Source: Phorcus lineatus
Lineage: Eukaryota > Mollusca > Gastropoda > Trochida > Trochidae
Length of the DNA: 64,000 bases
Assembly (NCBI GenBank): GCA_921293015.1
Contig: OV121092.1
Span: 14,638,001 to 14,702,000 of the forward strand
Direction of reading: 5' to 3'
The position numbers were made by a program, and so were the translations under genes. Shown here piece after piece: positions 17,001-49,600 of this stretch; position 1 is the stretch's first letter; each line of letters starts with the position of its first letter. Under the pieces are notes generated by a model, which was given only the letters and a program-made list of their open reading frames with translations, was not told the DNA's origin and did not search any database.

Positions 17001-20000
17001 GATATAATGAACTTTGAATAATATGTGAGTCACCCACAGTAAATCAAAACCATGAAAGTTGAATGTACTACATACTTCAGCTTGATTACAAAAGTGTCAT
17101 CTCGTCTCTTAGTACAAATATCATGTATTTTGTCAAGTTTCTCATACATCAAAGCATGGGAAAAACGAAACGAAACAAATAAATTTCTGTTGTTACTTGT
17201 TGTAAACTGAAGTAACGAATCTACCATAACACAATCTATTTCCATGAGTAAATGTTAACTGTCACAGTTTGGCTTCTCTTTGAAATGACCAGGAAATGGG
17301 ATATTCTTGAAAGTCTTTATTTTGCTCTGAATCTTCAATAAGTATTAATTAATCTCAAGAGTCATCTTGTTCTTTTGTACCTCTCACCTAAAGTTCAAGT
17401 AGATCCCATTTTTCTCTCAGTGGAGAAGATCGATCAATATGGACTGGTACCTATAGACTCCGAGATGTTTTAAAATACGCCTGAATGTTTTTTTCTTTCG
17501 TCATTTTGTCACATGCCATGAAAAAATAACAGATTGATGCAAGGTCAATCAATCTTGTACGTAATGTCGGTTGAATTTGTCCTTATACAAACTAACTTCT
17601 TTGGATTTTTTCTTTGTACGCTACTTGGAAAGTTTTCCTGTGAACTAGTATAGATATATCAAAAGAAAATCTTTCGAGTTTTTGCAGTGGTATCCAATGT
17701 TGGGTTGTTTAATAGTGCAAGTAAACAAGTCCATATTTGGAAATAAATATGTGTTTATTTATGTTGACGTGATCATCAAGTCTTATGCTACTTCATATAA
17801 AAGTCTTACGAGATGTCATCAAAACGATGAACAATTAATAATTGTCATTCCATTTTATTCCATAGCAGTATGGCTTATAGAAGTGAATGATAACCCTTAT
17901 AGTTCATAGACTTATGCAAACCTGCATATCAAGAAATTCTAAAATCTCACTATTGGCATTAGACGTTGCAGAGAAACAGTTTGCTGAAAGAGACACTCAG
18001 CGAGTTCTGTGACATTCTATTCAGCTTTGATAAATTAAAAAATTCCTTTAATGCTGATGAAAATTGAAAATATTACACTTACCCATCTTCAATATTCGAC
18101 AATAGTTTTAATGAATATCAAAAGACAGCCTTATTAATGTGAGGTAACTTAAAGTAAATTGGAAATATCATAAAATCATCTTCAAACTTCATTAACATTA
18201 CATATGATAGGTTTTAATGAAACACAAAAACCTTATATATGTTCAGAACCTGAATTAATAAGTCCAAATCACATGAATACTAGTAAAATTATCAAATACA
18301 AGTCACTTAAATCTTTGCTGGGTTAGTTTCATCACTAGGTGTGGGTAATTGGTGCTTTCCAGCATCTGTACATTGTCCGGTTTTCAATCAAAACCTACAA
18401 CTTTTACCGTTACGTTAGTCGGTAATTTAAACCGAATAGCTTTCAAATGCTACTTTTCAACAACAGTCAGTCTGTCACAGGACTTCAAGAGCAGCTGTTG
18501 GGGCTCAGATTTACATCCATGTGTGTAACCATGTAACGACATTATTTCATAATACTTATACATCATTCTTAAAGACTCTCAAAAATCAGATGACATCTCA
18601 ATATAACGTCAAACAAATTAGGACGTAACATTGATATGACCTTGACGTTTGATATCAGTGAAGTCTCAATCTTTTCAATTTCAGCTGAAACCTCACGAGG
18701 AATAAGCATGGATGATTTAAAGAATCTCACATTCATGACTGATATATTAAGAAAACCAATCTGTAAAATTTGTACAATTAAAAAACTAACTTAAGTTATT
18801 TCGTTAATTATCAGACGACTTTGGGCTTGTTTGATCAATTTTGTGTTATGTAGATGTTGAACAATTGAATAAAAACACTTCCAACGGTTCCAAAACAAAT
18901 GGATTTATATCCGAAACACTTACATACCAAATGGCTCTCTATCACTCCCACTTGACCTTTCAAGTAAACATACACGTACATAAGAAGTAAAACTCTTGAA
19001 TTTTTTTATCACAAATTTACCAGATTTTATAAGTGCATTTTCTTTTTATTTTAAAAAGTTTGATTGTATACCGTTTTTTATTCTAAATTTACCGAAACAG
19101 GATATAATAGGACAGATACAGATATCAGCCTATGCTGTTATAGATGTATATTGTATTAAAGTCAACAATAGGGATCATGTCATTGCAGTTATAATATGTA
19201 GGATGTAGACAAACAAGATGAAGGTGTGGTCGGGGACAATCAGTAGGTGAAAGTTGTGGGTGAGTCTGTTTGTTTAATATGATTGAGTGATGTCCGTGGG
19301 TTAAAACGATGTTTTGTCTACTGCTCGTATGTTAAAGGTATCATTCCAAGAGAAATCATTTTAAAATGTTCTATGACTAATACAGCATGATAAGTAATGG
19401 AGAAATGAGAGTAGAAAATAAAAAAGTTTTCTGTCTAATGTGTTAGATGTATATATCCTATCGTATAACATCAACGATTTTAATCAATCAATCAATTATA
19501 AAAAAACAATAATTGAAAATATAAAATGAAGATTAAAAGGGAAATTGCACCATTTTTACTTAAATTGATTTTAAGAAAATGAAATTTAAGTTTTCCAAAT
19601 GCAAGATAATAATGTGTAATCAAAAGAAGAAGTTTGGAAACGAACGTAGGGTTATTTAATTACTATCATCTTTCACAAGTAAATCCACGGTCTTCTCAGT
19701 CGTCTTGTGAACGTTTTCGGTGAAAATTTTTTGAAATATTTTATAAGACAAATGATATATTATGGAACCTTTAAACCAATATTTTACAACAAATATTGCT
19801 CAACGACCAATAAGACTAGAATTAAAGATTTTTTAACTTGAAATTTGAATTAATTAAATTGAAACATTTGTTCAACTTCAACTTTAATTATGTATTTTTT
19901 CAATGCTACGGAAACATTATAATCATCATAAATTGTTTCACTTTCTCTAATATTATGCGAATGGTTACTGAATGGTTTCATCATTTTCGACCTATCATAA

Positions 20001-20600
20001 GAGATACAAAATGAATGTCTGGACACATTGATTTTTCATCGACTAAAATCGATGTGTCCTTGATAACAAACCTCATCAAAATCTGAATCAAGCAATCCCT
20101 TTTTATAATTTATTGTGACCTAATGTCACACCATATTTCTATGAATAGATTTCAACTGACATTACTTTAAGGCACACCATTTTACAAGAGGTCAGAGGGA
20201 TAAATTCATGCTAAATTTTACAAATCGTATTCCCAGATGTGTCAGGATGACATCTCTACCAAAGTGCACATTAAACCAGGTGTGTAAAAGTATGTCCTAT
20301 GAATGAGTTCTTGAAGATATAAAAATGAATTTAAAAGTCAACGAAGAGAACATGATTAGGCCGAATACTTCTTGGACCCCTTTCGTATATTGAGATAACC
20401 AGCAATGCCGTCATAATCAAAATACTCGGTAAACATTTTGCTAAGATTATCTAATCTGCAAAGTACACAAACTCTTCAATATCGAATTGCATTTATCGCT
20501 GACATAAACTTCCATGTTTTGCAACACGTATCTTATTACAATCTGCTTTTATCTGTGTTGATCACAGAAAATAGGTCACACAGAAAGGACACCTGTTCAA
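14090..20600. other. intergenic, no gene seen
   Basis: AT-rich sequence with only short, unconvincing ORFs. No splice-bounded coding run, RNA gene or clear mobile element was recognised. Confidence 0.5.
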
Positions 20601-20602
20601 AT

Positions 20603-20666
20603 ATGGATCTTCCTTGTTGTCTTGGAGTTGTTTTGTTCTCTTTAACAGTAGCAACGGGCGTAACAG
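20603..20666 (+). CDS. cysteine-domain gene exon 1 (signal peptide)
   Basis: ATG at 20603. 21 codons plus one base, ending at a GTGTGT donor. It encodes a hydrophobic core (LGVVLFSLTVATGV) typical of a signal peptide. The start is chosen because it is the ATG that gives a complete signal sequence and joins in frame to exon 2. Confidence 0.8.
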
Positions 20667-23600
20667 GTGTGTAGTCTTCTTTGAGGAAGTTTGATTTTGG
20701 TATCTGGCAGGAATAGTTTGTTTTATAAGCATCTATATATGTATATCTGCTTTGCCTGCTGTCGTTGATTTCTTGAAAAGGCGAGGTATTCAAAGAGAAG
20801 GCTCGGTCGTAATATCTTTTGGAGGAAAACTATGTATATGTACATTAATTTCACACGGCAAAAGAAAAATTAGTTTGATAATGTGAAATGCAAAGATCTT
20901 TCTGAATCGACCGTTGACGATAACTGTAAGCAGACTCTATTCATATAAACCCTATTCACGTTCCATACGTGCGAGATACAATGTTCAGATGTAGTATTGA
21001 ATGCATTCATTAGCTATCAGGTGGAAAACAAAGGTTTAGAGAAGCTGTGAAATGATTTATAACATTGCACCAACATCATTTTCTTCTACAAAGATTACTA
21101 TATTATGGATACTGCCATCATGAAAAGATTATATAGAAATCACCACTTAACGAAGAGTTGCTGACTAAACATTTTGCCCATGATCCATATTTAATTTTAC
21201 GGGCAAAGTTGATATCAATTAGAATTTAATATGTTTCAATTTTATTAATTCTGACAATAGGGAGAGACTAATTTTGAATGTAGCTTAACAGCTTGAATGA
21301 CATATCATTAACCTCATATTCTACATATCACGTTGGATAACTTATATCGGATGACTATGTACTTCTGGCGGTTATCAAAAGTTAAGATAACCAGGGCTTT
21401 AATAATAAGAATGTTTGGAATTTTCAGGTGAATCGAGTGGCAATCAAGATCTGAAAGATGTAAGTAGGCGTTTCTGTGTAAAATTTGCAAATCTAGCTTG
21501 ATGTATAAGAAACAATAACAAGTGATGAACTTTATTTCAAATCAATATTCGGATTGAATGTCATGATATTTGGAAATTTAGTGGCGCCAGTCCACGTCAT
21601 TGGACTATAGAAACTAATAATTGTTTTCTTTTATTCACCTTCATAAGCGTTTTATGATACAGCTCCATCTCACTCGATGAATCGGAACGGTAGTGCTTCT
21701 TTGAACTTGTGGCTACAGTTACCTTAAAGATATCACGTTTTTACATCGTAAAGTATTGGTATAATCAATGAAGTTGTCTCTACTTATTCATTAAAATGAA
21801 TTTTAAAAAAAAATGTTTTTAGTACACCCCTGAATCGAATTGTACCTCTGTTAATAGTGACCAAAACTATCCATGTATTATTAACCGATGTACAATTCGA
21901 TTAGGGGGGTTTTCTAAAAAAATATTTAAAAAAAAATTCTGATTAAAAAAAAAATTAATGATCCGATGGCCTGTGCTACTGACACCATTATTTCCTTTAA
22001 AAGGATGTGAAATGCCCCCACTTACCGTGCCCGCTTCCTCCAAACTGCACCCACAAAGCATGGAGCCACTTTTGGTACCATGGGAAACTGTGCAAGGGAT
22101 GTCAATACTGTACCAACGACACCACTGACACTTACGACACTTCTGATTTACAGGTCAGTTCTCATTTTGGTGTAGTTGACAATGACCCCTCTGTCTTTTA
22201 GATATCAAACAAAGAAGACCCTCCTACAAACTTACTACTCCAGAATCACAAATCAGTCTTTCGGTTGTACTTGATAATTTAACAGCTGACAAGAAGACAA
22301 CTGCTTTCAGGGCATTATCACTTTAAGGGGCAGTAGCACCTTTATTAAGATGAATAGAGTACTCTCGTAAAAACGAAAAAATTAACACTTGAAAGACAGT
22401 GTTTTTCAAGAGCATTTTTAAACATCAAACTATGTTCAGCTATGCGAATCCATTTTCCTCAGAAATTTGGTTGAATAGTGTTCACAAAAAATGGCCGCTC
22501 GTGGTTTCTGTTTCATCCCCCCCCCCCCCCCCCCCCCCCAACCCCAATCGAATGGTACCTCGGTTAATAGTATATGGATAGCTTTGGATACTATTAACAG
22601 AGGTACAAGGGTGTTGTTGGGGGTTTTTTGGTGTTTGGAAGATCAAAAACGTTTTGAAAATTGGGTTACTACCATTTTGAGAATTTCGCAACTTTGCATC
22701 AAATTATATTAATCCATTTTTTGTATGTTCCTGTTCATCAGAGTTTTTTCTCAAACAAAAGATTCTGTTTAGAGCTTAAGCTAGACACATTTATATTGTT
22801 GTTGACCTTCAATTTCTAATAAACATTTTTTTCTATTTTTCAAAATAACTAATTTAATTTAAGTAAGACAACGATGATAGAGTTAATTTTACCCTAGTCG
22901 AGTCGTTGTAAGGTGAAATGTAATAGTTAAGTGTAGAATTTGAAATTAAAATATCTTAATAGAATTACTTCACTCACTCAGATGAAATTTATTTAAAATA
23001 AATGTAAACAAGAATCTTAATTTCGATTTTCGATATGTCTCGATGAATGAGTCACCAATGAAATGAGTATTAGTGACAAAATCAGTTGTTACAGGCAATT
23101 ATTATTTACATCAGCAGACACAAGTTGAAGAAATTGTAATGTGAATGAAACTATATCAACATTGTCATTGTATTACTGTTGCAATATCAAATCACCCGAC
23201 ACTTCAATTACAACGGGATCGGAATGATATGAACTTACAACTATCATTTTTAAAATGTACTGTCGTGAAATTAATGAACTAGCCGTTATACTTTTATGTG
23301 CTTTTGGTCCAAATAAATTAGAAAGTTTGTCTAATACACAGAAACAATAAATAACACCCAAAATTGCCACTGCATTTAGCGTTTTTACTCTCGACTGGTC
23401 AAGGAAGCATAATTTTTCCTTTGTCTTCTGAATCTGAGTATTATATTAGATATTAAACTCATGTTCGAATGAAATGGATTTAAGTCTAAATCGGTGCCTA
23501 AACTCATGAAAGTTTTATTCCCACGTCCCAAGGATGTTGCCTTCTGCCTTCTTCTTGATATGATAAAGGAACGGAAACAGCTTTAAGTTTTCTCAACTTT

Positions 23601-26600
23601 TCCCGAAACAGACCGAATGCCGAGTTTGATAACATTCAGGATTACCTTTCGTTTGCATAAGAAAACTGTGTCGTTAGATCAATCTCATTAAAATAAGTTC
23701 ATGATTTTGCTAGATTCGTATCACGGACATTGGCTATCGCAAAGACTCTTACTTGATAATAATCATCATCCCGTAGTGCTTCATAATTATGATCTCATTT
23801 AATGAGATTGCTTTTAAAAGAGAGGACACAATGAAAGATGTGTACTCAAAATAACTTTCTCTTTCCATCCACAACAAACCAAATACAAACAACTAACATC
23901 AAACTGGAAGTCCCCTGCGACACTTGCCGAGGCGTTTATTACAATCTTGCTCATAGCAAATCACACCAATGGTGTTATCCGCGCCTCACTGTCATTATCA
24001 TTAAACATGTTACTCAGAGATATTGCGGGACGATCATTTTTGGCAGCACTCAGATTCCATGTATCCCTCATATCAGTCAATTGGCAATATTCAGCATCAC
24101 CAGATGTTGCTCTAACATCTATTCCAACACTGCAGCAGTGCCTCATGCTTCATTTCAAGCATCACTTGATGTCACTGTAACATCTACTCGCCTACAAGGT
24201 AGGTACTCAACACTGCGAAGCAGCAGTGAACCATGAACCATTCTTTCATGAACCACACACTATCACTTCATGAACCACACACTATCACTTCATAAACCTT
24301 AACTATTAAAAGAATCCCCAATAAATGATCATCATTTCATCAACCAACACTCCATCAAGCACCACACTTTTCACCAAAAAATATTAGACCAGCACCATGA
24401 CATTTACTGGACGCTACTGTAACCTCCACTACCTAAATGTTACATTCCCATTACTGCATATCAGTAACCCATGAAAATCATTTGAACTACAACCTCATGA
24501 CCAATGAAGTATTACTTCATACACAATCACTTCACAAAAGACAAATCAGAGTGAATCACTATCAACCGTCACTGCTTTTACTCTACACCATCACTCCATC
24601 ATAAATCATCATTCCATCATACATCATCACTCCACAATACACCATCACTCCACAATACACTTTCACTCCACAATACACCATCACTCCACAATACACCACT
24701 CCACAATATACCATCACTCCACAATACACCATCACTCCACAATACACCATCACTCCGTAATGTACCATCACTCTGCCATGTACCATCACTCTGCCATGTA
24801 CCATCACTCCGCCATGTACCATCACTTCCCAATGTAACATCACTTCCCAATGTACCAACGCTTCCCAATGTACTTCATACACAACTTCCTAATGTACCAT
24901 CCTTCCACCATATATTATCACTTCCCCATGTACCATCACTTCTTTACACACCATCACACCACCATGAACCATCACTCCACATGTACCATCACTCAACATG
25001 TACCATCACTGAACCATGTACCATCACTGCACCATGTACCACCACTGCACCATGTACCATCACTGCACCATGTTCCATCACTGCATCATGCACCATCATT
25101 GCATCATGTGTCATCGCACCAACCTGTACCATCACTGTACCATGTACCATCACTGCACCATGTACCACCACTGCACCATGTACCACCACTGCACCATGTA
25201 TCATCTCTCCCCCATGGACCATCACTGCACCGTGTCAACACACCACCCTGTACCATCACTGCACCATGTGCCAACACTGCATCATGTACCACCACTGCAC
25301 CATGTACCACCACTGCACCATGTATCATCTCTCCCCCATGTACCATCACTGCACCGTGTCTTTGCACCACCCTGTACCATCACTGCACCATGTACCAACA
25401 CTGCATCATGTACCAACACTGCACCATGTACTATGTACCACCACTGCAACATGTACCATCACTCCATGATGTACCATCACTCCACCATTATTTATCATCA
25501 CTCCACCATTATTTATCATCACTCCACCATTTACCATCAATTCAAGATCCCAGCATAAATGAGCAATCATTTCATGAACCTAAACTCAAAATCACAGCTT
25601 ACCTTAATCCTTATTGCACACCCCATGGTTACATTTGAAAGCTACAAAGACATTAGTCACCTAGGGCAAAGGAATCACTACTTAAAATTCACAAATGTTG
25701 CCTGTATGGCTTTACTGCTGTCAACATAAATTCATCTCAAATATCACATACACACGATCCAACGTAAAATATGACATTTCATCAACTTGATCCGCTAGTT
25801 GTCGCAGCCGAGAATAGACTTCCCGCGCTCTGACATCACATTTATAGACACCTCACAGCGCCCTCTACACAAGCATTACCTCCCTTTTTATTTGGTTTGT
25901 TCCTAAAGAGAAATCAATTTCTCTCTAATTCGCCCAGCTCAAACGATAGAAATTTCATTAAACAGTAAAGAGAAAGAGAAGGCTCCTTTGTAACAGTTGA
26001 AGACCTTTGGGGCCAACAAAGCTTTGTGCAGGAGGTTTCTTTACACTTTAACAAATGACAGCTAAAGATCTCATATTGCTTGTAAATCGTAACATCTATG
26101 ATACATATCAACTAAAATGTTAAAATTAGAAAATTATGAAAGGATTAGGATTCTATTTGGCCCTGGGATAAACCAAATAAGTTCAACCGTCCAATTAGCC
26201 TATGGAAGTCCATTTTAAATGTACCATGGAGGGCCTTCAGAAAATTAGAAATTGTTCTCCGCTCGAAGTCATTTCAGACCTTCAGAGTTAGCTATTAGAA
26301 TTGAATACAAATGTTCATGTTTACATCGTCATTTCAGACGAGTCCACCTTGTCCGCCACCTCTACCCTGTCCACCCCCAGTGCCGGAATGTGCCCGGACC
26401 AAAATGATGTATAAGAAGTACCATGGGCATCTCTGTCCACTCTGTGAGATGTGTATCTACTGGAACATATCGAAACCAGCGAGACAGGTATGTCGCTTAG
26501 AAGATTTACAAATATTGAGGATACATTATGCTGAAGTCGACCAATACCATAAAGGTCATGCTCAAAGTTCGCAAATAAAATATTAGCCTAGAGTAAAGAT

Positions 26601-29600
26601 CAACAAGGTTCTTTTTTCTTTCCCAAGTATGTGACCATCCATCAAATTTGGGCGCTCATCCACTAACGCCATATATATCAATAGTCTTAAATAATAAAAA
26701 TAAAAAACGGTGTTAAGGTGTTGAAATCAACAGTCCTTCTTCGTTGTTTGTATAAGTTTCTAATATTCCGGTCCGTGATGCGAGGAACCTCCCCGAGAGA
26801 ACGAGTTCGTACCCAAAAAGGAGTCGACATTTTGAGACATTTTTCCTCTCCTAACAAGGTCGATTCTATCCAGGCGGGATTCTGCAGACGCGTCAAACAT
26901 TCTATTATGGCTGTTTTAAAAGTACAAAACATAGACAATATTTACATAACATTACATGTAACCCTTTAACTTTAGCATATTCTTTATCCTTTCTATGGAC
27001 TTTTGTTGAAAACCTTTTTTCCACCACACATTTTATTCACACAATTCGCAATGCTGGTGAAAGGGAGCTAACTCTGTTATACAATGTGAAATTATGAAAT
27101 TACTGTTGTGACGAAACTAGGTTCCAACCTATTAACGTTCTATCAACATTGTGAGTTTATATATATGTATATATTTTTGGGGGGTTTTTTTGGAGCAGAT
27201 AATTATTTTCTGGTTTTTTTTTGCATGTTTACATAACACTTATTTTTTAAAAATTATTTTATGTTTATCTTATACATTTTTTTAAAGTTCATACGATTTG
27301 ACAAAGCAGTTCATGATATCAAGATAACATGCTATTCCGTAACGAATAATCTTTAAAAAATTCAGTAAATTTTTATTTGGTGTCTTGAATAATAAGTTCA
27401 ACAACAAAAGGGATGCTGAATCCTTAAATATCATTTACCTAACATGCTGCTCCTTACCTAAGAGTATTTAAGCGAAGTTCAATTTTGAATCAAAATATTC
27501 TTGCCCATTGCCATTTGAGGTAGAGAAATAGATTCGAATAGCTTATCCGAATATGGTACGTTCATTTTAAAATTGTTTCTTTCAATTAAAATACATTTTG
27601 AAATCAGTCATTTCATCTAAAATAACGTCCCATTGTCCGGTAAAGGCACTCTGACGACCAAAATGACTTTGTGTAATGGCCAGCTCGCCATCATATTGAT
27701 TACAGCATGTATGAACCCAACCAATCCTGATCGGAGGAATAAATACAAACTAATACGGGATACGTACTTGTTCGTTTGGAAAGGCTGTGGCAGAGAATTG
27801 ATTTCAAAGAGCGATGGAATGCAGGTTCGAATCCTGGCGTATCAACTATGAAAACAACTTTGAATTAAATTTTGATTTTAATTGTTATGAAAATAGTTCT
27901 GATTTAAATTAGTTTAATGAGTCTTAACAGGTCTTCAAATAAGAAATCGTAATTTGCAACTATTCCGGAATTTACTAGCCACATCCTATAGTTTACAATT
28001 CACAAATCTGGTATAAACGGGTATTTTAAATCAACACCCAATGATATTAGGTAATATAAAGTAATTAATTTACAACTATTATTGTGTTAACTAAGATCAT
28101 TGTTTGCCCCCAGGTGCATGGAGAATGTCCGATGTTTAAGTGCCCCGCCCCCGGTCCGTGCGAGACTGAACTGGCCTACAGTGAGGTACACATCCCCGGG
28201 GTCCCCGCCCACTGTAAGGGCTGTCCCTTCTGTCCTACACTCTCCAACATACTAACCAAGAGGCAACAGGTAGGTATTCAGCTTTTGGCTATGTAGATCA
28301 TTTGACAATGTAGATCATTTGACACTTTCAGCCTTTGACCCTGACATTTAACTCTTGAAAGACGTTACTACAATATATATGAGAAGGGTTAAATATGAAC
28401 CCAGGCTGTAATGCAATATTTGGACATGGGAACAGCCTGACTTTCACTGACCGTCTGAAATTAGATTGAACGTGCTTGCTTGCGTTCCATACGACTTTTC
28501 GACATTTTTTGGATTTACGGATTTATGACTTAAAATGACAAATCTGTTACATAAAAAGATACGATATGCGTTTTAGACTGGGGTCATTATTACCCTAAAC
28601 ATATAAGTGCAATATATTCAATAGTAGGAGGGATTACATTTTCTTATTAAATTCCTATGTTTATATCTATGCATTTTGGCAGAATTATTTATTTTTAAAA
28701 ATGGTTGATTGAGAAATACTAATACATAGTCTAGAGAAAGTATGTTTATAATTTGTTGATTATTTCAATAAATAATTAGCACGTGGGTCCTTTTTGACCA
28801 AAACCTCGCACTAGGGTTGATTTACTTGTTTCGATAAAAAAAGTTTAAATGAATTATGCGCAACTTATATTCTGGTAATCATTATGTATTTATGATTGAT
28901 TTATTTCAACGACTCATTTCCCTGATAGTGACGTTTTTTCTATGATTTTAAACGGAACGGAATTTTCCAAGACAACTACACCCCTACAAAAACTCTAAAC
29001 AGCCAACAACCATTACAACTTTTATTAATAAGATGAGCACTATGCATTACAGGAAACAACGTCTTAGAACTAAGTCGGTAGCTCGATAGTGTTAGAAGTA
29101 TTAGAAATATGTTACATTATCATTCAAGACTGAGATGAAGCTAACCGAAACAGTGGAAACAACAACACTACTCATGATGAGTACATCATTAGTGATGAAC
29201 CTTTTTTTAAATTTTTATTCTGGAAAGAGTTAGGTTTGTCATATTTTTATTTTTAATCTATTCGATTGGTTTCCGATTTTTTAGATAAACACGATCACGA
29301 AAGCCTTACTATATTAAGCAAGCAAGTTAAAGACTTATATTTTAACGAAAGTGACAGTGGCCAGTTCTATCCCATAAGCTACATTGGTTCTTCATGCGAC
29401 TCGCAGAAGTAGTGAAAGGGGATTCTGGCTGACTCTTTCGGAACCTTTTCCTGAGTAGACGTTGTAAGGTCTATTTAATGTCCAAAATGGTCATACACAC
29501 TACTGGTCCAGTTGATTTCGATAATTGTTTGGTCTCCGAGCCCTGGTTCCTTGAACCGTCTGTACCTTTGTATTAACCACATTTGCATGTTTATTCATTG

Positions 29601-30038
29601 ATGGTTATTTTTACCTAATAATAACGTTTATCTGCATATTACCAAACATGTATGTATTGCCACAAAAATATTATTTCTAATTCTAAAAATTCCAATGGTG
29701 GCTAACTTTTATTGCTCAGTTTGTTAAACTAGAGTACGAGAAACACCATTTTAACCAATAAGCATTCAGGATTTAAGAAGGAGCATGCCTTTGGCATTGT
29801 TGACTGTACTCCCCTGAGAAGCCGTTACGGAATATGGTCAATGGATATTCTTTCAGTTATGTAACAATAGCATGACTGCCTCACTGAAGGATCCTGTTGA
29901 CAGATGCTGGTGTGTCCTGACGTGTCCTGTGCTGAGCCTGGCCCCTGTGCTGCCCCGTACAAAGTAGCCACTCTCACTGTCCAGGGGATGGACTGTCCTG
30001 GGTGTCCGTATTGTCCAGTAGCTGCTGGCCATCACTAG
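20603..30038 (+). CDS. secreted protein with four six-cysteine repeat domains
   Basis: The gene model has six exons: 20603..20666, 21428..21459, 22004..22153, 26338..26487, 28114..28269 and 29904..30038. All introns are GT-AG and the frame stays open to a TAG stop, giving about 228 residues. Residues 1-22 (MDLPCCLGVVLFSLTVATGV...) are a signal peptide, and residues 23-32 a short linker. Four domains of 44-52 residues follow. Each matches C-x(4,5)-C-x(5,6)-C-x(14-17)-C-x2-C-x2-C, with many prolines after the first two cysteines. Each domain is one exon flanked by phase-0 introns, as expected from tandem exon duplication. Its 24 domain cysteines point to an extracellular, disulfide-bonded protein. 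The spacing loosely recalls the C-terminal half of VWC or antistasin-like modules but fits neither, so no function is assigned. A polyadenylation signal follows 30 bp after the stop. Confidence 0.85.
21428..21459 (+). CDS. cysteine-domain gene exon 2 (linker)
   Basis: A 32-base micro-exon after TTTTCAG and before GTAAGT. It converts phase 1 to phase 0 and encodes the end of the signal region plus ESSGNQDLKD. Confidence 0.75.
21824..21912. mobile_element. hairpin MITE, copy 1
   Basis: Inverted arms: CCCCTGAATCGAATTGTACC ... TTAATAG on the left and the complement (TTAACCGATGTACAATTCGATTAGGGG) on the right. It lies in intron 2 of the cysteine-domain gene, about 90 bp before exon 3. Confidence 0.75.
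22004..22153 (+). CDS. cysteine-domain gene exon 3 (domain 1)
   Basis: 150 bases, 50 codons, phase 0 on both sides (AAAAG acceptor, GTCAGT donor). Cysteine spacing is C-x4-C-x5-C-x14-C-x2-C-x2-C, followed by a Thr/Asp-rich tail. Two related hairpin MITEs flank this exon in introns 2 and 3. Confidence 0.85.
22517..22625. mobile_element. hairpin MITE, copy 2, with poly-C run
   Basis: Same family as the copy at 21824. Arms AATCGAATGGTACC...GTTAATAGT and ACTATTAACAGAGGTAC fold back. A run of 23 C lies at 22517..22539, probably an expansion of the CCCC terminus. It is in intron 3, about 360 bp after exon 3. Confidence 0.75.
24570..25550 (+). repeat. 18-bp VNTR array in intron 3
   Basis: Roughly 50 units of an 18-bp repeat. 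The left part is close to CACAATACACCATCACTC and drifts to CATGTACCATCACTGCAC on the right. A degenerate precursor, repeating CATGAACCACACACTATCACTT-like words, is visible from about 24245. Because 18 is a multiple of three and the unit lacks stops in several frames, long spurious ORFs run through it on both strands. Confidence 0.9.
26338..26487 (+). CDS. cysteine-domain gene exon 4 (domain 2)
   Basis: 150 bases, exactly the length of exon 3, phase 0 on both sides (TTTCAG acceptor, GTATGT donor). Spacing is C-x5-C-x6-C-x14-C-x2-C-x2-C, with a proline-rich start (PPCPPPLPCPPP). Confidence 0.85.
27758..27844 (+). pseudogene. tRNA-like pseudogene or SINE head
   Basis: An 87-base segment, the length of a Leu/Ser tRNA. 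The acceptor arms GGATACG and CGTATCA pair at six of seven positions. The T arm is CAGG-TTCGAAT-CCTG. The D arm is poor and the anticodon stem does not pair, so a working tRNA is unlikely. It lies in intron 4 of the cysteine-domain gene. Confidence 0.35.
28114..28269 (+). CDS. cysteine-domain gene exon 5 (domain 3)
   Basis: 156 bases, 52 codons, phase 0 on both sides (CCCCCAG acceptor, GTAGGT donor). Spacing is C-x4-C-x5-C-x17-C-x2-C-x2-C. It is clearly more GC-rich than the surrounding intron DNA. Confidence 0.87.
29904..30038 (+). CDS. cysteine-domain gene exon 6 (domain 4 and stop)
   Basis: 44 codons plus TAG. Spacing is C-x4-C-x5-C-x15-C-x2-C-x2-C. The protein ends seven residues after the last cysteine (PVAAGHH). 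Confidence 0.87.
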   Translation: MLVCPDVSCAEPGPCAAPYKVATLTVQGMDCPGCPYCPVAAGHH

Positions 30039-30067
30039 ATGCAAGATTTGGAAAATATCATCTTTAT

Positions 30068-30073
30068 AATAAA
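30068..30073 (+). promoter_or_regulatory. polyadenylation signal AATAAA of the cysteine-domain gene
   Basis: AATAAA begins 30 bases after the TAG stop, which implies a very short 3' UTR. Confidence 0.65.
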
Positions 30074-30236
30074 GCTAGTTAACATCTGTGATCTTCCTTT
30101 ATTCTGTGCAAATAGGATATGCTTAGTATTTGATATTTCTTTGAAATGGCATCTTGCGAATGGCGAATCCCGTGTTATTTAATGCTGGCAAACGCTGTCT
30201 TTCTTTCTTTCATTAAAATGAGATTGAACATTCGTT

Positions 30237-30585
30237 CATCTTGCTTAATCAGCGTATGTGAATCCGCTCTCGTTCCTTCCTAATACCCTGATCTCTTTCA
30301 AGCCAAAAGCCAAAAGCCATAAGCCTCGTATCGTTAGCTATCTAACCAGCCAATGAGAGGACTCGAATTCAGAAATAGCGGCAAAACACGGATGGAAAGT
30401 CTGTTGAGTTCAAGATAGTAGCTTCACGCTCCTTGCATAACGACATTCCATTGGCTGACATAATAACAAGTGAACTAATTCACGAATTTCAAGCCGAACC
30501 AGGCGATCGAGGCATTTGGCCCGAAAGAGATCAGGGTATTTGGAAGGAGCGAGAGCGGACTCATATACGCTGATTTAGCAGGATG
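30237..30585. mobile_element. long-TIR foldback element, copy F1
   Basis: Terminal inverted repeats of roughly 70-100 bp start CATCTTGCTTAATCAGCG and end as the complement of CATCCTGCTAAATCAGCG. The element is flanked by an identical 9-bp direct repeat, ACATTCGTT (30228..30236 and 30586..30594). Long TIRs with 9-bp target duplications suggest a non-autonomous Mutator-like element. No coding capacity. Confidence 0.85.
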
Positions 30586-31405
30586 ACATTCGTTCCTCGC
30601 TGCGTGTCTGATCTGAGTACTGCTCCATAGAGATCATGACAACCATTACTGCAGCAAATCAGTGATGACAGTCCGAGAAATGGTCACTTGATACGACCCC
30701 TGTACTCAGAAGAACTCAGCTTAGAACTACGTTTAATGTGATTCTCTTTGTCATGTCTGCAATTTTAACATTGCTGTTTCTGGACTCTTCTTAAAAACAA
30801 TATTTTGACCTCAACCAAATCTAAACAACTTGAAATCCTCACCTAACTACTTAAAATCTAACCAGTTGTGGCACTTTCTACAAAGCATGATTTGTATACG
30901 TTTTTGTCACTTGAGACTTCATGTATCGATTTTAACGTCTTTCAATGACGTTTTTACGTGCAACTTATTTCAATTTGGTGTCAGCTTTCAACCACCTACG
31001 TTGACGAGTTCTAACTTTAGTCACCCTTCTCCATCACAGTACCAGTATCAGCTTATCTCCTTCAACTCCCTGACTCTGGGTTCGAACTGTAATCTTTTCG
31101 GGGTCTTTCATAACGTGAACCCATCCCTTTTTACGGGCGTTTTTACAACAAAAACATCTACAAATGGATGACGCTTGCTGACTCGCATCAATTTGTAACC
31201 TGTTGCTTTCTTTCATCCGGGCATTGCTTATTTTAGATAATTTCAGTGGCTGTTTATTCATAGACTATACAAGGGAGACAATCTAGGAATTGATGGAACT
31301 TTATGTATTCTTGTTAAAAGGCTAAACGAAAATGAGATACACGTATTGCGTTAAACTTCCATTAAATTCAATGGTGATCCGTTTGTTTCTAAGGCGCTCA
31401 AAAAA

Positions 31406-40680: not shown

Positions 40681-43600
40681 GTATGATGTACTCATAATCT
40701 GACAAAAGTAGGCAGTTCGGATCTAAAACTCATAATCAGAGAAAACTACAGTAATTCTTTTAGTACACTTTTACCCATTTCTTATCAGAAAACAACTCGT
40801 CATAAACTGACAAAACAGGCAACGTTTTTTTCAATTTTCTTTTTCGAATTGATCTTTGGCAAAAAAGATATACATGTACTGTTAAAGTTCAAGTTTTATA
40901 ATTTGATCATCGGATAGTGATGAATAGTCTGTGAACATGTTATATAATATATGTTGATAAAAAAAGAACCCACAAAATAGACACATATACCTATAAGAGG
41001 TTTCTTTTTAGTTATATATTAGATATATTAGAATACATATGCAAATTAGATTGACTCTTGTTCCATTAATGATAAAAGACTGAGATATTTCATTGATTCT
41101 ATCTGTTGTAATTGAATAAAAGGAAAAAATGGAAATCACTTCAAGTTATTCCAAGAGAGATCTTCAACTTCATTTATGGGAAATATTTTTTGATTGCTTG
41201 AAGTGATCTGCTTCAAGCCAATATGAACTAAACTGAAGTCAAAGGTGAACCTGACGGCTTGAGAAATAGGGCCTTGTGAGATCTCTGATATATAACTAGT
41301 GTAAGAACATGCAAGCTACAAGGTTGCTTTGAGACTGTTGTTGAGAGAAAAAAAAACTGATAGTGTACGTTCGAATCCCGCTTGAGTCAACATTTAAAAA
41401 CTGTTATTCCTTGGAACATGGTCGATTTTAATCGGACTGAACACCTTATTTCCGTACCTCTGTAGTTTTTCCCTAACTACCATATAAAACATTAAAATGA
41501 ACCATAAGTGTAAAAAGTACAAGAAATTGAAGAATAACAAATATTTATTTTGAAAAAAGTAGAAAGGTCACTTAATGGATATATATTTTAGAATTATTCT
41601 AATTGCAGGAAAATTACGGTTTAGATAGAATTGAAATCAGAGACAATGGCAGTGGCATCAAGGCTGAGGATGTGGACTTTGTTGGTCGGAGTCATTACAC
41701 GTCCAAGATATCTTCTCACTCAGATCTTGAGCGTCTGACCACCTATGGCTTTCGTGGAGAGGCATTGGGTGTGTATGATTACCTACCTTTATATACTTAG
41801 AGAGGCATTAGGCCTGTATGACTACCAACCTTTATATGCTTAGAGAAGCATTAGATCTGTATAGTTGCCTAGCTTTATATTTCTATAGAGGTTTAAGGTC
41901 TGTATAGTTGCCTTGTTTTATATGTCTATAGAGGTGTAGGGTCTGTATTGTTGCCTTGTTTTATATGTCTATAGAGGGGTACGGTCTGTATAGTTACCTT
42001 GATTTATATGTCTATAGAGGTGTAGGGTCTGTATAGTTACCTTGATTTATATGTCTATAGAGGTGTAGGGTCTGTATAGTTACCTTGATTTATATGTCTA
42101 TAGAGGTCTGGGGTCTGTATAGTTGCCTTGATTTATATGTCTATAGAGGTCCAGGGTCTGTATAGTTGCCTTGATTTATATGTCTATAGAGGTGTAGGGT
42201 CTGTATAGTTACCTTGATTTATATGTCTATAGAGGTGTAGGGTCTGTAAAGTTACCTTGATTTATATGTCTATAGAGGTGTTGGTCTGTATAGTTACCTT
42301 GATTTATATATAGAGGTGTAGGGTCTGTATAGTTAGCTTGTTTTATATGTCTATAGAGGTGTAGGGTCTGTATAGTTATCTTGTTTTATATGTCTATAGA
42401 GGTGTAGGGTCTGTATAGTTACGTTGATTTTTATGTCTATAGAGGTGTAGGGTCTGTATAGTTACCTTGATTTATATGTCTATAGAGGTCTAGGGTCTGT
42501 ATAGTTGCCTTGATTTATATGTCTATAGAGGTGTAGGGTCTGTATAGTTACCTTGATTTATATGTCTATAGAGGTGTAGGGTCTGTATAGTTACCTTGAT
42601 TTATATGTCTATAGAGGTGTAGGGTCTGTATAGTTACCTTGTTTTATATGTCTATAGAGGTGTAGGGTCTGTATAGTTACCTTGATTTATATGTCTATAG
42701 AGGTGTAGGGTCTGTATAGTTACCTTGATTTATATGTCTATAGAGGTCTAGGGTCTGTATAGTTGCCTTGATTTATATGTCTATAGAGGTCCAGGGTCTG
42801 TATAGTTGCCTTGATTTATATGTCTATAGAGGTGTAGGGTCTGTATAGTTACCTTGATTTATATGTCTATAGAGGTGTAGGGTCTGTAAAGTTACCTTGA
42901 TTTATATGTCTATAGAGGTGTTGGTCTGTATAGTTACCTTGATTTATATATAGAGGTGTAGGGTCTGTATAGTTAGCTTGTTTTATATGTCTATAGAGGT
43001 GTAGGGTCTGTATAGTTATCTTGTTTTATATGTCTATAGAGGTGTAGGGTCTGTATAGTTACGTTGATTTTTATGTCTATAGAGGTGTAGGGTCTGTATA
43101 GTTACCTTGATTTATATGTCTATAGAGGTCTAGGGTCTGTATAGTTGCCTTGATTTATATGTCTATAGAGGTGTAGGGTCTGTATAGTTACCTTGATTTA
43201 TATGTCTATAGAGGTGTAGGGTCTGTATAGTTACCTTGATTTATATGTCTATAGAGGTGTAGGGTCTGTATAGTTACCTTGTTTTATATGTCTATAGAGG
43301 TGTAGGGTCTGTATAGTTACCTTGATTTATATGTCTATAGAGGTGTAGGGTCTGTATAGTTACCTTGATTTATATGTCTATAGAGGTCTAGGGTCTGTAT
43401 AGTTGCCTTGATTTATATGTCTATAGAGGTGTAGGGTCTGTATAGTTACCTTGATTTATATGTCTATAGAGGTGTAGGGTCTGTAAAGTTACCTTGATTT
43501 ATATGTCTATAGAGGTGTTTTTCTGTATAGTTACCTTGATTTATATATAGAGGTGTAGGGTCTGTATAGTTACCTTGATTTATATGTCTATAGAGGTGTA

Positions 43601-46600
43601 GGGTCTGTATAGTTACCTTGTTTTATATGTCTATAGAGGTGTAGGGTCTGTATAGTTACCTTGATTTATATGTCTATAGAGGTCTAGGGTCTGTATAGTT
43701 GCCTTGATTTATATGTCTATAGATGTGTAGGGTCTGTATAGTTGCCTTGATTTATATGTCTATAGATGTGTAGGGTCTGTATAGTTACCTTGATTTATAT
43801 GTCTATAGAGGTGTAGGGTCTGTATAGTTGCCTTGATTTATATGTCTATAGAGGTGTAGGGTCTGTATAGTTGCCTTGATTTATATGTGTATAGAGGTGT
43901 AGGGTCTATATAGTTGCCTTGATTTATATATCTATAGAGGTGTAGGGTCTGTATAGTTGCCTTGATTTATATTTCTATAGAGGTGTAGGGTCTGTATAGT
44001 AACCTTGATTTATAGGATTAGAGAGGCGTTTGGTTGGTATATTAAATCATTTAATCTTTTTCTCCATATTTTAAAAAGGTAAAAATTTCAGTCATTTTTG
44101 CATCCAACTTATTCAAGACAAATTTCAGATATTCATCATAAAGATTTGTAATGAAAATTGTTAGTCAATATGTACCATTTGTCGCATTTGTGACCTTTTT
44201 AACACTGGGGCCTATTAGACCCCACATGGTGGGGATGCCGGCATGCATATTTGAAGTTATGTACATTTATACATAATGAAGATAAATCAATTTCAATTTT
44301 CTTGTGTAATTGTGCTTGATTTTGGTACACACAAAGCCTGGTTCAATCAGATAACTTTTTTAATGCATTATAGGTAAAAAATCTACAGCTGGGGTCTATT
44401 GACCCCAACAAGTCTTCACCCATTCCACTAGCCTGTCAGTATCTTTCAGAGATAGCTCAAGCCATTTCCTCCTACTCTACCCTCTGATTTAACATAAGCG
44501 TTTTTCGGGATAGAAATGAATATTCCTGATTGGATGATCAACCAATAATTGAAGTGCAATATGTGACGACATTTCAAAAGCAATATTTTTGCAAAACCTC
44601 AGTTAGTACTAAGTTCCGTATGCTGTGGGAAACTAGAATTTCATAGACCATGAACCGCATGGTTATAAATGTAAAGGTGAATGATTCACTGCATCTACCT
44701 CTGACAGTGACAAACAAGCCTTGGATGCAGTAGTGATTTCATTAGTTAAAATTAAGCAGATAGCTTGTGTTGCAATGTTTTTCTGCTAGGAGAATCTGTT
44801 GGAACCTCTTATAAGAACTTAGAATTCTGATTCTTTAAACTTGACTTATACCCTTCAGTCGGATCAGGAGGTCCGTGGTTTGAATCCACCAGGGGCTCGA
44901 CAACTTTGTCTGCAGTAGAGAACTGTTCTACACACAGTCAGGTTTGGGTGCAATGCTACACTGAAATTCAGCGCAGTACCACCCATGGTTCGCTAGTTCC
45001 AGCCACAGCAATGCATAGCCACAATGGTGTTGCTGGCTTTCTCCCTGCAATAATACTAGCAGCCGCGATATAAGTGAAATAATCTTGAAAGCTGCGTTAA
45101 ACACCAACTCACCTCACCTCACCTATACCCATCAGGTTAGGAGGTCATGTTGGTTATTTCTAAACAAAAGTGGACTCATTACATTGTTACTTAAATTCAA
45201 ATAAAAATTTAACGGTAACCTAGCCAAATGACAGGCATATTTCCCTATTAAAGACTTTTGTAAACAACAATGCTAATGTCCTAGCAGTTTATTTGATTGT
45301 TTGTTCAACATTTTTCTAATTGTCGGTTATGAAAATTCCAAATCTTTTTTTTGATTTTCAGCATCTCTGTGTGCTGTGTCGGAGGTGACAGTGACAACAA
45401 AGACAGCAACAGACGATGTCGGCATGACATACTGTCTTACCAACAAGGGGGAGATTTCTAACAAGAAACCATCACATCTTGGTCAAGGTATATCTGTCAA
45501 TGAGACTCACTCAAATACTGTGTAAATAATGGGTTAAGAAAAGAGGAATTCCAGCAAGTGACCTTCAGTGCTGCTTGAAATTTGACATATGATGATGGCA
45601 AAATTGGATGTTAGTTTTAGACACAGAAATTTATTTTGAGCCCTCATCAGTTCAGATTGAATAAAATCTACTATCTTCTTAGGAACATAAATTTCAAATT
45701 ATTTATTCCACCGAGATCAAAGTGGTTCGTTAAGGGGTTTTCTCTCCACACAGTTTCTGGTTTGATATTGAGGTCTTGAACTGATACAGGAATTGGCATG
45801 TAAAACACTATCTACCTAGATTTGATCATTGTTATACAATGAATAAATTTTTCTTCAGGTACAACAGTAACTGCTGCCCACCTGTTCAAGAATCTGCCCG
45901 TCAGGAAGCAGTACCACAACACGGCAAGGAAGAAGAAAGAAGAGTTGAAGAGGATTGAGGATCTCTTGGTAGCGTTCGGGGTGATCCGACCTGAAGTCCG
46001 TGTGTCACTGCGACACAACAAGGAACTTCTTTGGCAGAAGAATGTTCTCCCAGACACAAGGGCCGTTCTTCTTAGTGTTCTTGGCAGGAACACTTTCACA
46101 AACCTTGAGAAAAGAGTCTGCCATCTTGATGAACCAGAGGTGAAATAGAATTTTCTATTAAGACCAATGTTATAAATACATTTGTAGATATCTGTCTTGA
46201 AGCTTTTTCTGCACATGTTTTTCCCACAAGATCAAAATTTTAGCTGATTGCTCAATTCTTTAGTTTTCTACCTGATTATGCTCTATAGAGAATACTAAAC
46301 AAATGGTAATGTGATAACATTTTTATGCAACGAGTGAATGTAATATGGTATCGGACGAACAAAAGTGAGTGATACCTAATTTCATTCACGAGTTGCATGA
46401 AAATGTTATCACAGAATCATGAGTTTAGTATTTTATTTATTACTCAACCCCACGTATCAATATTTTTGATAAATTAATCGTCAAAACAACAGTCAGCTGA
46501 TTGCGAAACCGGCGTAAGAATATCAATCAGTCAAACAAAACACCGAAAAATATAGTTCGCTAATTATTGATTGTCTATATAAGTGACTTTCCTAAAAACA

Positions 46601-49600
46601 TGTAACAAAAATCACATTAGTGAAAAAGTATTTCATTTTTAAGAAATTCAATGATATAACAAATGAAACAAATGCAAAAGCAACGAAAATGTCAAGACAT
46701 TGTACACTCGATACGTTAGTTGTGACGTCATCGGAATGTGACTTCTTTCTAGGTCAGATCAGTCAGTGTTAAAAGTTAGCGGAGCGGTGACAGCAGTTGA
46801 GGAGGATTGGTTGATATCATTGACTTGAATAACATAATTGTTGATAGGACCCGCAAAGATTGAACTTAGGGAACGGGAGTTGCAAGATGTCATGTTCAGA
46901 TTGCGTGCTTGTTGAGGGGGTAGCGACAGGTTGCATGGAACATTTGGTGGAAGGGCCCAGTTGTAAGGCGTGGAATGGCCGGCAAAGAAAGGACTACGTA
47001 ACGAAACTATCGACGGTACAGAAGTTGTGCGATTTATTAAAAGACTGATTAATTTGTGCTGGTTTTAAGAAATATGAGAGTAATTATTGACACTTTGGAT
47101 ATTTTATATTTTTGAATATTCATGTCTCGTTGAGAATGCAAAATTTGAAAGTCGCCATTTTCTAACGTACAGGTCACGCGATTGGATGATGTCATTTGAC
47201 GTTCGAAAATATTTCTGTTTGTTCGCACGAGATGGTATCACACATGTGTGTTACCAACTCTTTGTTATCTAATGAGTGATCTCACCACAGTTGAGTAATA
47301 AATTGCAATATCAGCTATAATTTGTGTTGTTAACCTTGTCAAACTATTGTTGCAGGTAGATGTGGAGATGTTTATCCCTAAGCCAGGTAGTGACCTCCAC
47401 TTGATGAGTCGGACGTCTACTGACCGATGCTTTATGGCGGTCAACTCCAGACCTGTTGATGTTAAGGAAATACATAAGGTGAGAAAAAATGGATTCAAGG
47501 TGAATGTAGATGTTTTTTCTGTTTCTTTTTTAATCAATTGATGAAATTGCAGCTGTTTGAAATTGTTCAAACTGGTGGCAGAGTTTAATGGGATCCCCCT
47601 AATTTTATGATCTTTGTGTTCTCATTGCTACAAAGTATCTTATCGGCAATCACCTTCACATGATAAATGTTACATCATTAAAAAAACTTTTGTAAAAGTT
47701 TTTTAACTATTTTGTCCGAGTTTAAGATATGATACGTTGTTTAGCTCAATGTATATATATATGATATAAGATGACATGACATGACATAGCGTAGCGATGT
47801 TATACAAAATTTGTTGCTGTTATACATCGATAGAGGCACAAAAACTGTAAAACAATCCTTATAATTACAAAATCAACGCTACTTCCAAAGATTTTCTGAA
47901 TAATTTAAACAAATCTTAAATAATTGTTGTGAATTGTTAGTTTGCTACACACGACTGTACATGGTGGAATCAAAATTGAGAATTTCATGTACTAAAACGG
48001 AAGATCATTGAATTTTGTTTTTATCAGCATTGATGCTCATGCAATCAAGGTTAATCTTAACTTGCGTTCACATTTTTTGAATAACCCTTATTAGCATATA
48101 GTGTGACATTCAAATTGGCTAACATTTGTGAAACAATTCGAGCTATCAACCTTCAGTACTCCTATTTTTTAAATCAAGAGTTTTCGGTGAAGGTAATAGT
48201 TTCCCTTCGGGGTCGAAAGTATCATCTGGTCATCAACACAGTTATGAAGATGGTGAGATGCGGACAATTCTTATTTTGCAAAAGAATCAAAATAACGCTC
48301 TGTTAGCCGTTGCCTCAATTTGTTCTGTTAGATTGTGAATCATTAAGAATGAATGCACGATGCATAACTGCAAATTTTTTCTGCATTCATCGAGAAATGG
48401 TTGCATGTTTTTGAGAGCTCTCATCCAATCAAAATCGCCGAAAAACGTGTAACAACGTCATTTTGTAATTATTGATATATAGCAGTTTATTTCATAACTT
48501 GATGTTGTGAAACAATTTTTATTCACTATGAGGACAATTTTCAAACAATAAGCAACTTCTCTCATAACGGAGCTTCCAATTAAGCATTATTTACAATTTC
48601 AGTTGCTGCGACGCTACTACTGCACATGTCACAACATTGAAGGCACTAGGCACCCAATATACTGCGTGTCAATCAGAACACCCCCCAGTGATGTTGATGT
48701 CAACTTGGATCCCAACAAGACAAGAGTTTTGCTCCAGCACATGGTAAATCATTATTTCTTTCCTTCTCCTTAAACTGCTTCTTTGTTGCATTCATCTTTG
48801 CATAATTGTCAATTGCCGCACTGCAGAAAACAAACTATATATTGGCATATATCGTTAACTGTTTCTTAACTGTTTCTTATCTCTCAGTAATCCATTGTTT
48901 TCAAATTTGCTTCATATCAACTTCATGAAATATGCAGACATCAGTTTGGCGACCTTGACATTACTCTCCAGTGTTACATCCATGCCGCAATGTTGCGGGA
49001 TATGTGCTATTTTATATCTCACCCTTGCAACTTACCAATTATATATACCAAAGATATTTAACCGCAACCTACCTTGATGTTTTAATTTCAAACATTTTAC
49101 ATACTGTTATTAGGTAACTTGATATAGTATGACCTGCTCAATAAAACATATGTATTTGAGATAAACCTTAAGTTAATAGCACTTCCAAATGTACTGCATG
49201 CGCAGTATATATTTATGCTAGCTAATTTAAAACAATTGGCCAGCGTCTACTTGTTTTGTACACTTAGTTCTTTGCAAGCAAATGCAGTAAAATTACCTAA
49301 AACAAAGTGCTTACAGGATCTTTTCGTGAATAATTGTGAAGTAATTATAAACATCTACATACAAGTAATGCTTTCATGGAATGATCCGCCACCAATCTTA
49401 TGTCCCAACTTTGAGGGTTGTTTTGTCAATCATGTCATAATTTATTTCTTGAGCATTATGGGGTGACAGCACAAAGTTTCATTGTGATTAATTCTCACTT
49501 AATAAAAGATCTCTTTATGCAATAAAACCCTTCAATTCAAGGAATATTTTCAGGATGCCATAAAGAAATGCGTCGAGACTGAGCTGTTGTATATGTACGG

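Follow-up and report, generated by a model that had tools for sequence, protein, structure and literature searches.

A predicted gene of Phorcus lineatus for a secreted protein of four six-cysteine modules with a weak likeness to the VWC C-leaf

What kind of protein is encoded by the six exons at 20603-30038 of a 64,000-nucleotide stretch of the gastropod Phorcus lineatus (contig OV121092.1 of assembly GCA_921293015.1, positions 14,638,001 to 14,702,000; the whole stretch is called the window here), and is the cysteine-rich module that it repeats four times related to any named domain? The gene lies on the + strand, and its exons join in frame into an open reading frame of 687 bases, that is, 228 residues plus the stop codon. 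We put at about one half the probability that the product is a secreted chain of four disulfide-locked modules, that these modules are diverged, free-standing relatives of the C-leaf, the C-terminal half (subdomain 2) of the VWC domain, and that the chain serves as a spacer or binding scaffold. The features of the gene are as follows, in window coordinates.

20603..20666, + strand: exon 1 (64 bases), start codon and predicted signal peptide MDLPCCLGVVLFSLTVATGVTG, from the translation and its hydrophobic stretch
21428..21459, + strand: exon 2 (32 bases), start of the mature chain with the ten residues ESSGNQDLKD, from the in-frame join (entry phase 1, exit phase 0)
22004..22153, + strand: exon 3 (150 bases), module 1, from translation and motif
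26338..26487, + strand: exon 4 (150 bases), module 2, from translation and motif
28114..28269, + strand: exon 5 (156 bases), module 3, from translation and motif
29904..30038, + strand: exon 6 (135 bases), module 4 and the stop codon, from translation and motif
30068..30073, + strand: AATAAA, a putative polyadenylation signal, 30 bases beyond the stop codon

The start codon was found in a good context (A at -3, G at +4), with a TAA in frame upstream at 20414. The leader behind it is hydrophobic, its Kyte-Doolittle means over 11 residues reaching 2.49, from which a signal peptide is predicted, with cleavage probably after VTG. All five introns run from GT to AG, with phases 1, 0, 0, 0 and 0. 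On simple consensus scores, four of the five donors ranked in the top 1.2% of the GT sites of the region and the fifth in the top 3.8%. Of the five acceptors, four ranked between the top 1.2% and the top 8.5% of AG sites, and that of exon 6 (29904) was mediocre, as 27.8% of AG sites scored equally well. The guanine-plus-cytosine (GC) content was 53% in the coding sequence vs. 31-38% in the five introns, and the four module exons stood out as GC-rich peaks. A profile search of the window found no fifth copy of the module (next-best match E = 0.067), and among the phase-0 AG..GT open stretches with at least five cysteines in 20500-30100 only variants of the four modules appeared (10 listed). Judged from the sequence, 20603-30038 is a real and complete six-exon gene. 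The joined model upholds what the sequence-only reading had described, namely six exons joining in frame at consensus splice sites into a signal peptide plus four six-cysteine repeats, with exons of exactly 150 bases for the first two domains and phase-0 introns between the domain exons.

Each of exons 3-6 carries one copy of the strict motif C-x(4,5)-C-x(5,6)-C-x(14-17)-C-x2-C-x2-C. In detail, the spacings between the cysteines were 4/5/14, 5/6/14, 4/5/17 and 4/5/15 in modules 1-4, respectively, followed by x2 and x2 in every module, all inside the pattern given earlier. These were the only four occurrences in the six frames of the window, while 100 first-order Markov resamples of the window held none. 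The modules further share the loop C-P-x-[LVF]-x-C-x-x-P and the end G-x-x-C-x2-C-x2-C (module 2 with one extra proline). The predicted mature protein has about 206 residues (22.6 kDa unglycosylated), with linkers of 15-25 residues, a neutral isoelectric point (pI) of 6.86 and neither a low-complexity acidic nor a Gly/Ser-rich stretch. It contains three sequons, NCT (residue 46) and NDT (residue 70) in module 1 and NIS (residue 125) in module 2, the first of which overlaps a cysteine and may stay unglycosylated. Between modules 3 and 4 the linker contains a dibasic site, KR (residues 181-182), with QQ directly behind it, and the sole other dibasic site, KK at 108-109, lies inside module 2.

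The four modules proved to be related beyond their cysteines. In tblastn searches of the window, modules 1 and 2 matched each other at E = 7e-5 and modules 3 and 4 at E of about 7e-6 to 9.5e-6. None of 1000 shuffles that kept every cysteine in place reached the score of pair 1-2 or that of pair 3-4, and only 6 and 11 of 1000 reached those of pairs 1-3 and 1-4, respectively. When the prolines were fixed as well, the scores were reached more often, by 4 (1-2), 22 (3-4), 31 (1-3), 24 (1-4), 227 (2-3) and 329 (2-4) of 1000 shuffles each, indicating that part of the likeness is proline placement. Identity at codon positions 1, 2 and 3 was 0.50, 0.55 and 0.30 (210 codon pairs from the six module pairs) and 0.41, 0.47 and 0.24 without the shared cysteines, in pairs aligned on the protein, which favours positions 1 and 2; pair 2-4 gave no such contrast (0.46, 0.49 and 0.46). 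Since third positions are at chance and the first two above it, the duplications look old and the protein looks conserved under selection. The profile and tblastn matches, the shuffles and the codon-position signature thus bear out the tandem exon duplication suggested from the exon structure. One ancestral doubling, followed by a doubling of each half, could have given the present order.

The introns hold repeats of their own. A looser form of the motif gave one extra match, at 25161-25280, within an 18-base tandem repeat of intron 3 (24587-25539; 52 copies, 77% match, consensus ACCATCACTCCACCATGT), whose several open frames, with up to 304 codons, reflect nothing but its composition. Two AT-rich stretches, both short, one in intron 2 (about 21839-21902) and one in intron 3 (about 22550-22615), have ends that look near-palindromic by eye and read ...CGAATxGTACCTC(T/G)GTTAATAG...; they are possibly a small inverted-repeat element.

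Is the module a known domain? The searches covered Pfam, NCBIfam, the PDB and the Foldseek libraries, the PDB being the only source of eukaryotic sequences, and it is in these that no named relative was found. Pfam returned a single match up to E = 10, DUF7567 (PF24451), on module 1 (15.7 bits, E = 0.015; with flanking residues 16.7 bits, E = 0.0073), which spans 22-23 residues; membership was rejected, as the score is under the gathering cut-off of 27 bits and modules 2-4 had no match. At the same limit, no Pfam match was obtained for EGF, WAP, antistasin, Kazal, Kunitz, pacifastin, TIL, TNFR or defensin-type domains. In NCBIfam, eight families matched a single module each (best E = 0.042), and phmmer matched four PDB chains up to E = 10, none past its cut-off. 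The best phmmer match (E = 0.0081), to a proline-rich stretch of a GLDH chain, was dismissed as weak, and so were three chains from a PDB profile search (best E = 1.4), which matched in zinc-finger and copper-site CxxC stretches. In hhalign, EGF, WAP, Kazal and Kunitz sequences (including BPTI, PSTI and elafin) scored at background, as did two TNFR1 repeats (10.7 and 10.5); antistasin was covered by Pfam only. Collections of viral, bacterial and archaeal genomes were also searched, and as they are not meant for animal genomes, their nulls say little: 593 pattern stretches for module 2 in bacteria and archaea left none confirmed, and a viral-contig match to module 3 (locus L001; 15/51 residues, no C-x2-C-x2-C, in a phage-like region) was judged to be chance. 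The literature searched held neither a description of such a protein nor any of six heptapeptide strings (five module types and one variant mix).

The closest of the domain kinds compared was the C-terminal half of VWC. In the VWC sequences from the PDB, this half ends in C-x4-C-x4/5-C-x(8-12)-C-C-x2-C and frequently has the loop C-P-x-[LVP]-x-C-x-x-P. A first comparison of the modules with seven VWC half-domains aligned 12 columns at a score of 18.2, which was reached by 0/200 permutations, and hhalign gave the modules vs. VWC a probability of 30% (A3 vs A4). With 13 VWC rows, the score was 20.2 and the probability 27%, and 0, 1 and 1 of 150 permutations reached it in three controls, in which module columns were permuted with the cysteines fixed, or with cysteines and prolines fixed, or VWC columns were permuted. 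In the 18.2 and 20.2 comparisons one cysteine column of the six was left free, because MAFFT had offset the third cysteine; with all six aligned by hand and fixed, the probability was 20% and the score 18.7, which 0, 0 and 0 of 150 permutations reached. As single sequences, ten of the 13 VWC rows scored above all nine control small disulfide domains, which were single sequences too, the tenth by 0.01, and three did not. VWC was picked for the similarity of its motif, so this comparison was not blind. Taken together, the modules appear to resemble the VWC C-leaf weakly but specifically, and this is not membership of VWC: each module has six cysteines instead of ten in two subdomains, all four end in C-x2-C-x2-C instead of CC-x2-C, and the pattern C-x2-C-x-C of the VWC N-terminal half was not found in the three forward frames of 19000-31000. 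The sequence-only reading had found no family for the domain, and no Pfam family came above its cut-off here either. Its exclusion of EGF, WAP and antistasin also stands, and a full ten-cysteine VWC is excluded here, while its flat exclusion of VWC by spacing was too firm.

How might such a protein be built? AlphaFold2, given an alignment of the four modules only, predicted a two-stranded hairpin in modules 3 and 1 (mean predicted local distance difference test, pLDDT, 72.7 and 76.4), so the structure prediction proposed in the sequence-only reading produced a hairpin for these two at modest confidence. In the reading that we favour, a short acidic-polar start would be followed by the four modules on their linkers. 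Each module would consist of an N-terminal loop with three cysteines and at least two prolines and of a beta-hairpin whose second strand bears C-x2-C-x2-C, three disulfides probably clasping the loop to the hairpin. The module would be a much diverged VWC C-leaf, copied as a one-exon phase-0 cassette, in which a third internal disulfide would replace the lost bond between the halves. Several C-leaf-like modules in succession, together with the sequons (residues 46, 70 and 125), fit an extended, flexible spacer or scaffold; the extracellular protein would then be N-glycosylated, its variable hairpins would be contact faces, and the KR between modules 3 and 4 would be a possible cleavage site. 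In procollagen II, both VWC subdomains contribute to a BMP-2 epitope, according to an excerpt of the source (PMC10326224). More tentatively, and rather doubtfully as a whole, the module can be viewed as a new extracellular domain, a VWC C-leaf that was freed, gained a third disulfide, came to occupy a single phase-0 exon and was amplified in tandem as an exchangeable cassette.

Several results weigh against the reading that we favour. The hhalign probability was only 20-33%, and the alignable core of 11-26 columns is largely C-P-x-[LVF]-x-C-x-x-P. Two registers compete, as the alignment with score 20.2 places module cysteines 1 and 2 on VWC cysteines 6 and 7, and that with score 18.7 places module cysteines 1-3 on VWC cysteines 5-7. 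In a one-way test with a VWC hidden Markov model (HMM), in which the shuffles held every cysteine, module 1 was above most of them (2/500 reached its score), while module 4 scored weakly (28/500) and modules 2 and 3 no better than shuffles (241/500 and 300/500). Neither the protein nor the four modules matched Pfam VWC (PF00093) up to E = 10, HMMER filters applying, while the half-domain of the COL2A1 (collagen II) VWC alone, as a positive control, did so at E = 8.5e-6. The module pairs 2-3 and 2-4 were weak, their scores being reached by 121 and 48 of 1000 cysteine-fixed shuffles. The structural models were modest, the other four of module 3 having pLDDT of 38.6-52.7, and Foldseek gave no fold match at E <= 0.001 for either folded module, with 202 matches at E <= 10 for module 1 (best 1.9 among the matches listed) and four for module 3 (best 8.4).

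The best-surviving alternative, which we regard as a realistic possibility, is an unrelated, lineage-restricted cysteine-rich module that arrived at C-P-x-L-x-C by convergence, in a secreted multi-module protein of no VWC ancestry. The lack of a Pfam or fold match, the low hhalign probability and the lack of a VWC HMM score in modules 2 and 3 speak for it, and such proteins are common wherever they have been sought; in the part of PMC1676022 that was available, almost 85% of the abalone mantle secretome is novel. However, at most 1/150 permutations per control reached the VWC score, and VWC ranked above nine other small disulfide domains. A multi-headed protease inhibitor, with each hairpin or inter-cysteine loop as a substrate-like reactive loop, is unlikely: such an array of small six-cysteine domains whose loops vary is a typical feature of inhibitors, but none of the Kazal, Kunitz, WAP, antistasin, pacifastin and TIL families matched in Pfam, and BPTI, PSTI and elafin were at background. 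Rather less credit goes to the idea that the protein is processed into secreted defence or signalling peptides, with a cut at the KR before QQ setting module 4 free, since only one such site lies between modules, the KK being inside module 2, and no defensin-type Pfam match was found. A role in a skeletal matrix, be it that of shell, byssus or another structure, appears equally improbable; mantle secretomes commonly contain secreted repeat proteins, as an excerpt of PMC4897951 states, but the neutral pI and the lack of low-complexity acidic or Gly/Ser-rich stretches speak against it. No observation made here favours the matrix, defence or shell-associated roles that the sequence-only reading had offered as options. 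Despite the mediocre last acceptor, a pseudogene or a chance run of open exons is very improbable, given the four motifs vs. none in 100 resamples, the codon-position signature, the lack of any stop or frameshift, the GC contrast and the polyadenylation signal.

The neighbouring features have no bearing on the function of the module gene. A mismatch-repair gene of the MutL family follows on the + strand, about 12 kb further downstream. Its open reading frame 45843-46145 is similar to structures of MutL and PMS2 (best E = 3.7e-6), and additional exons probably lie near 41641-41830 and near 49506-50447; the one near 41.7 kb looks like a MutL ATPase domain, and the gene may be PMS1. A 43-base satellite (41856-44014, about 50 copies, 94% match) interrupts this region. 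At 53151-58360 lies a GC-rich (55-60%) retroelement, DIRS-like by impression only. It encodes a reverse transcriptase (RVT_1, E = 4.6e-19), within an open reading frame of 976 codons that extends past the element. At 52660-52992, on the - strand, there is a weak match to MoaE (molybdopterin synthase; E = 0.0022), whose 18.6 bits fall short of the cut-off, 23.4. A search of PDB sequences up to E = 1 returned nothing for it, and it could be a decayed or divergent exon.

What would the locus mean? If the half-VWC reading is true, the locus shows how one subdomain of a very common extracellular domain can turn into a building block of its own that fits in an exon, and the module can seed a profile with which to look for others that escape the present Pfam models; if it is false, the protein is one more of many unnamed cysteine-rich secreted proteins of invertebrates. 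Either way, the module merits a profile entry once homologues have been gathered. The product is a real extracellular protein, though probably no extraordinary one, and an animal protein database may already list it as uncharacterised. Unnamed secreted proteins are the rule in the mollusc mantles studied, as far as the available parts of PMC1676022 and PMC4897951 go, and a failure to detect homology lies behind many lineage-specific genes, according to an excerpt of PMC7660931.

Compared with known systems, the modules share with the VWC C-terminal half of collagen II, chordin and NELL2 the loop C-P-x-[LVF]-x-C-x-x-P with G..C-x2-C-[PQ] behind it, a hairpin after the loop (predicted here) and an hhalign score above nearly all permutations. 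In contrast, they lack the N-terminal half, have C-x2-C-x2-C for CC-x2-C and a loop of 14-17 residues vs. about 8-12 in the VWC rows from the PDB, hold six cysteines in one exon and match no Pfam family. Arthropod SVWC proteins carry eight cysteines, and in this they differ from the modules, which have no Pfam match. They are similar in being small, secreted and VWC-like, with one such module each in the part of PMC13115929 that was available. The truncated VWC' of VWF and gel-forming mucins, as described in an excerpt of PMC10082768, consists of the C-leaf alone, with two disulfides, and its stalk carries N-glycans at even spacing. As would hold for the present modules, this C-leaf has no N-leaf and stands in a series of modules, while it has two disulfides vs. 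the three expected here and sits in a giant protein, and the likeness is one of description, not of sequence. With lineage-restricted multi-module secreted cysteine-rich proteins, the product shares the signal peptide, the tandem one-exon modules and the lack of a database family, and only the module itself distinguishes it from them.

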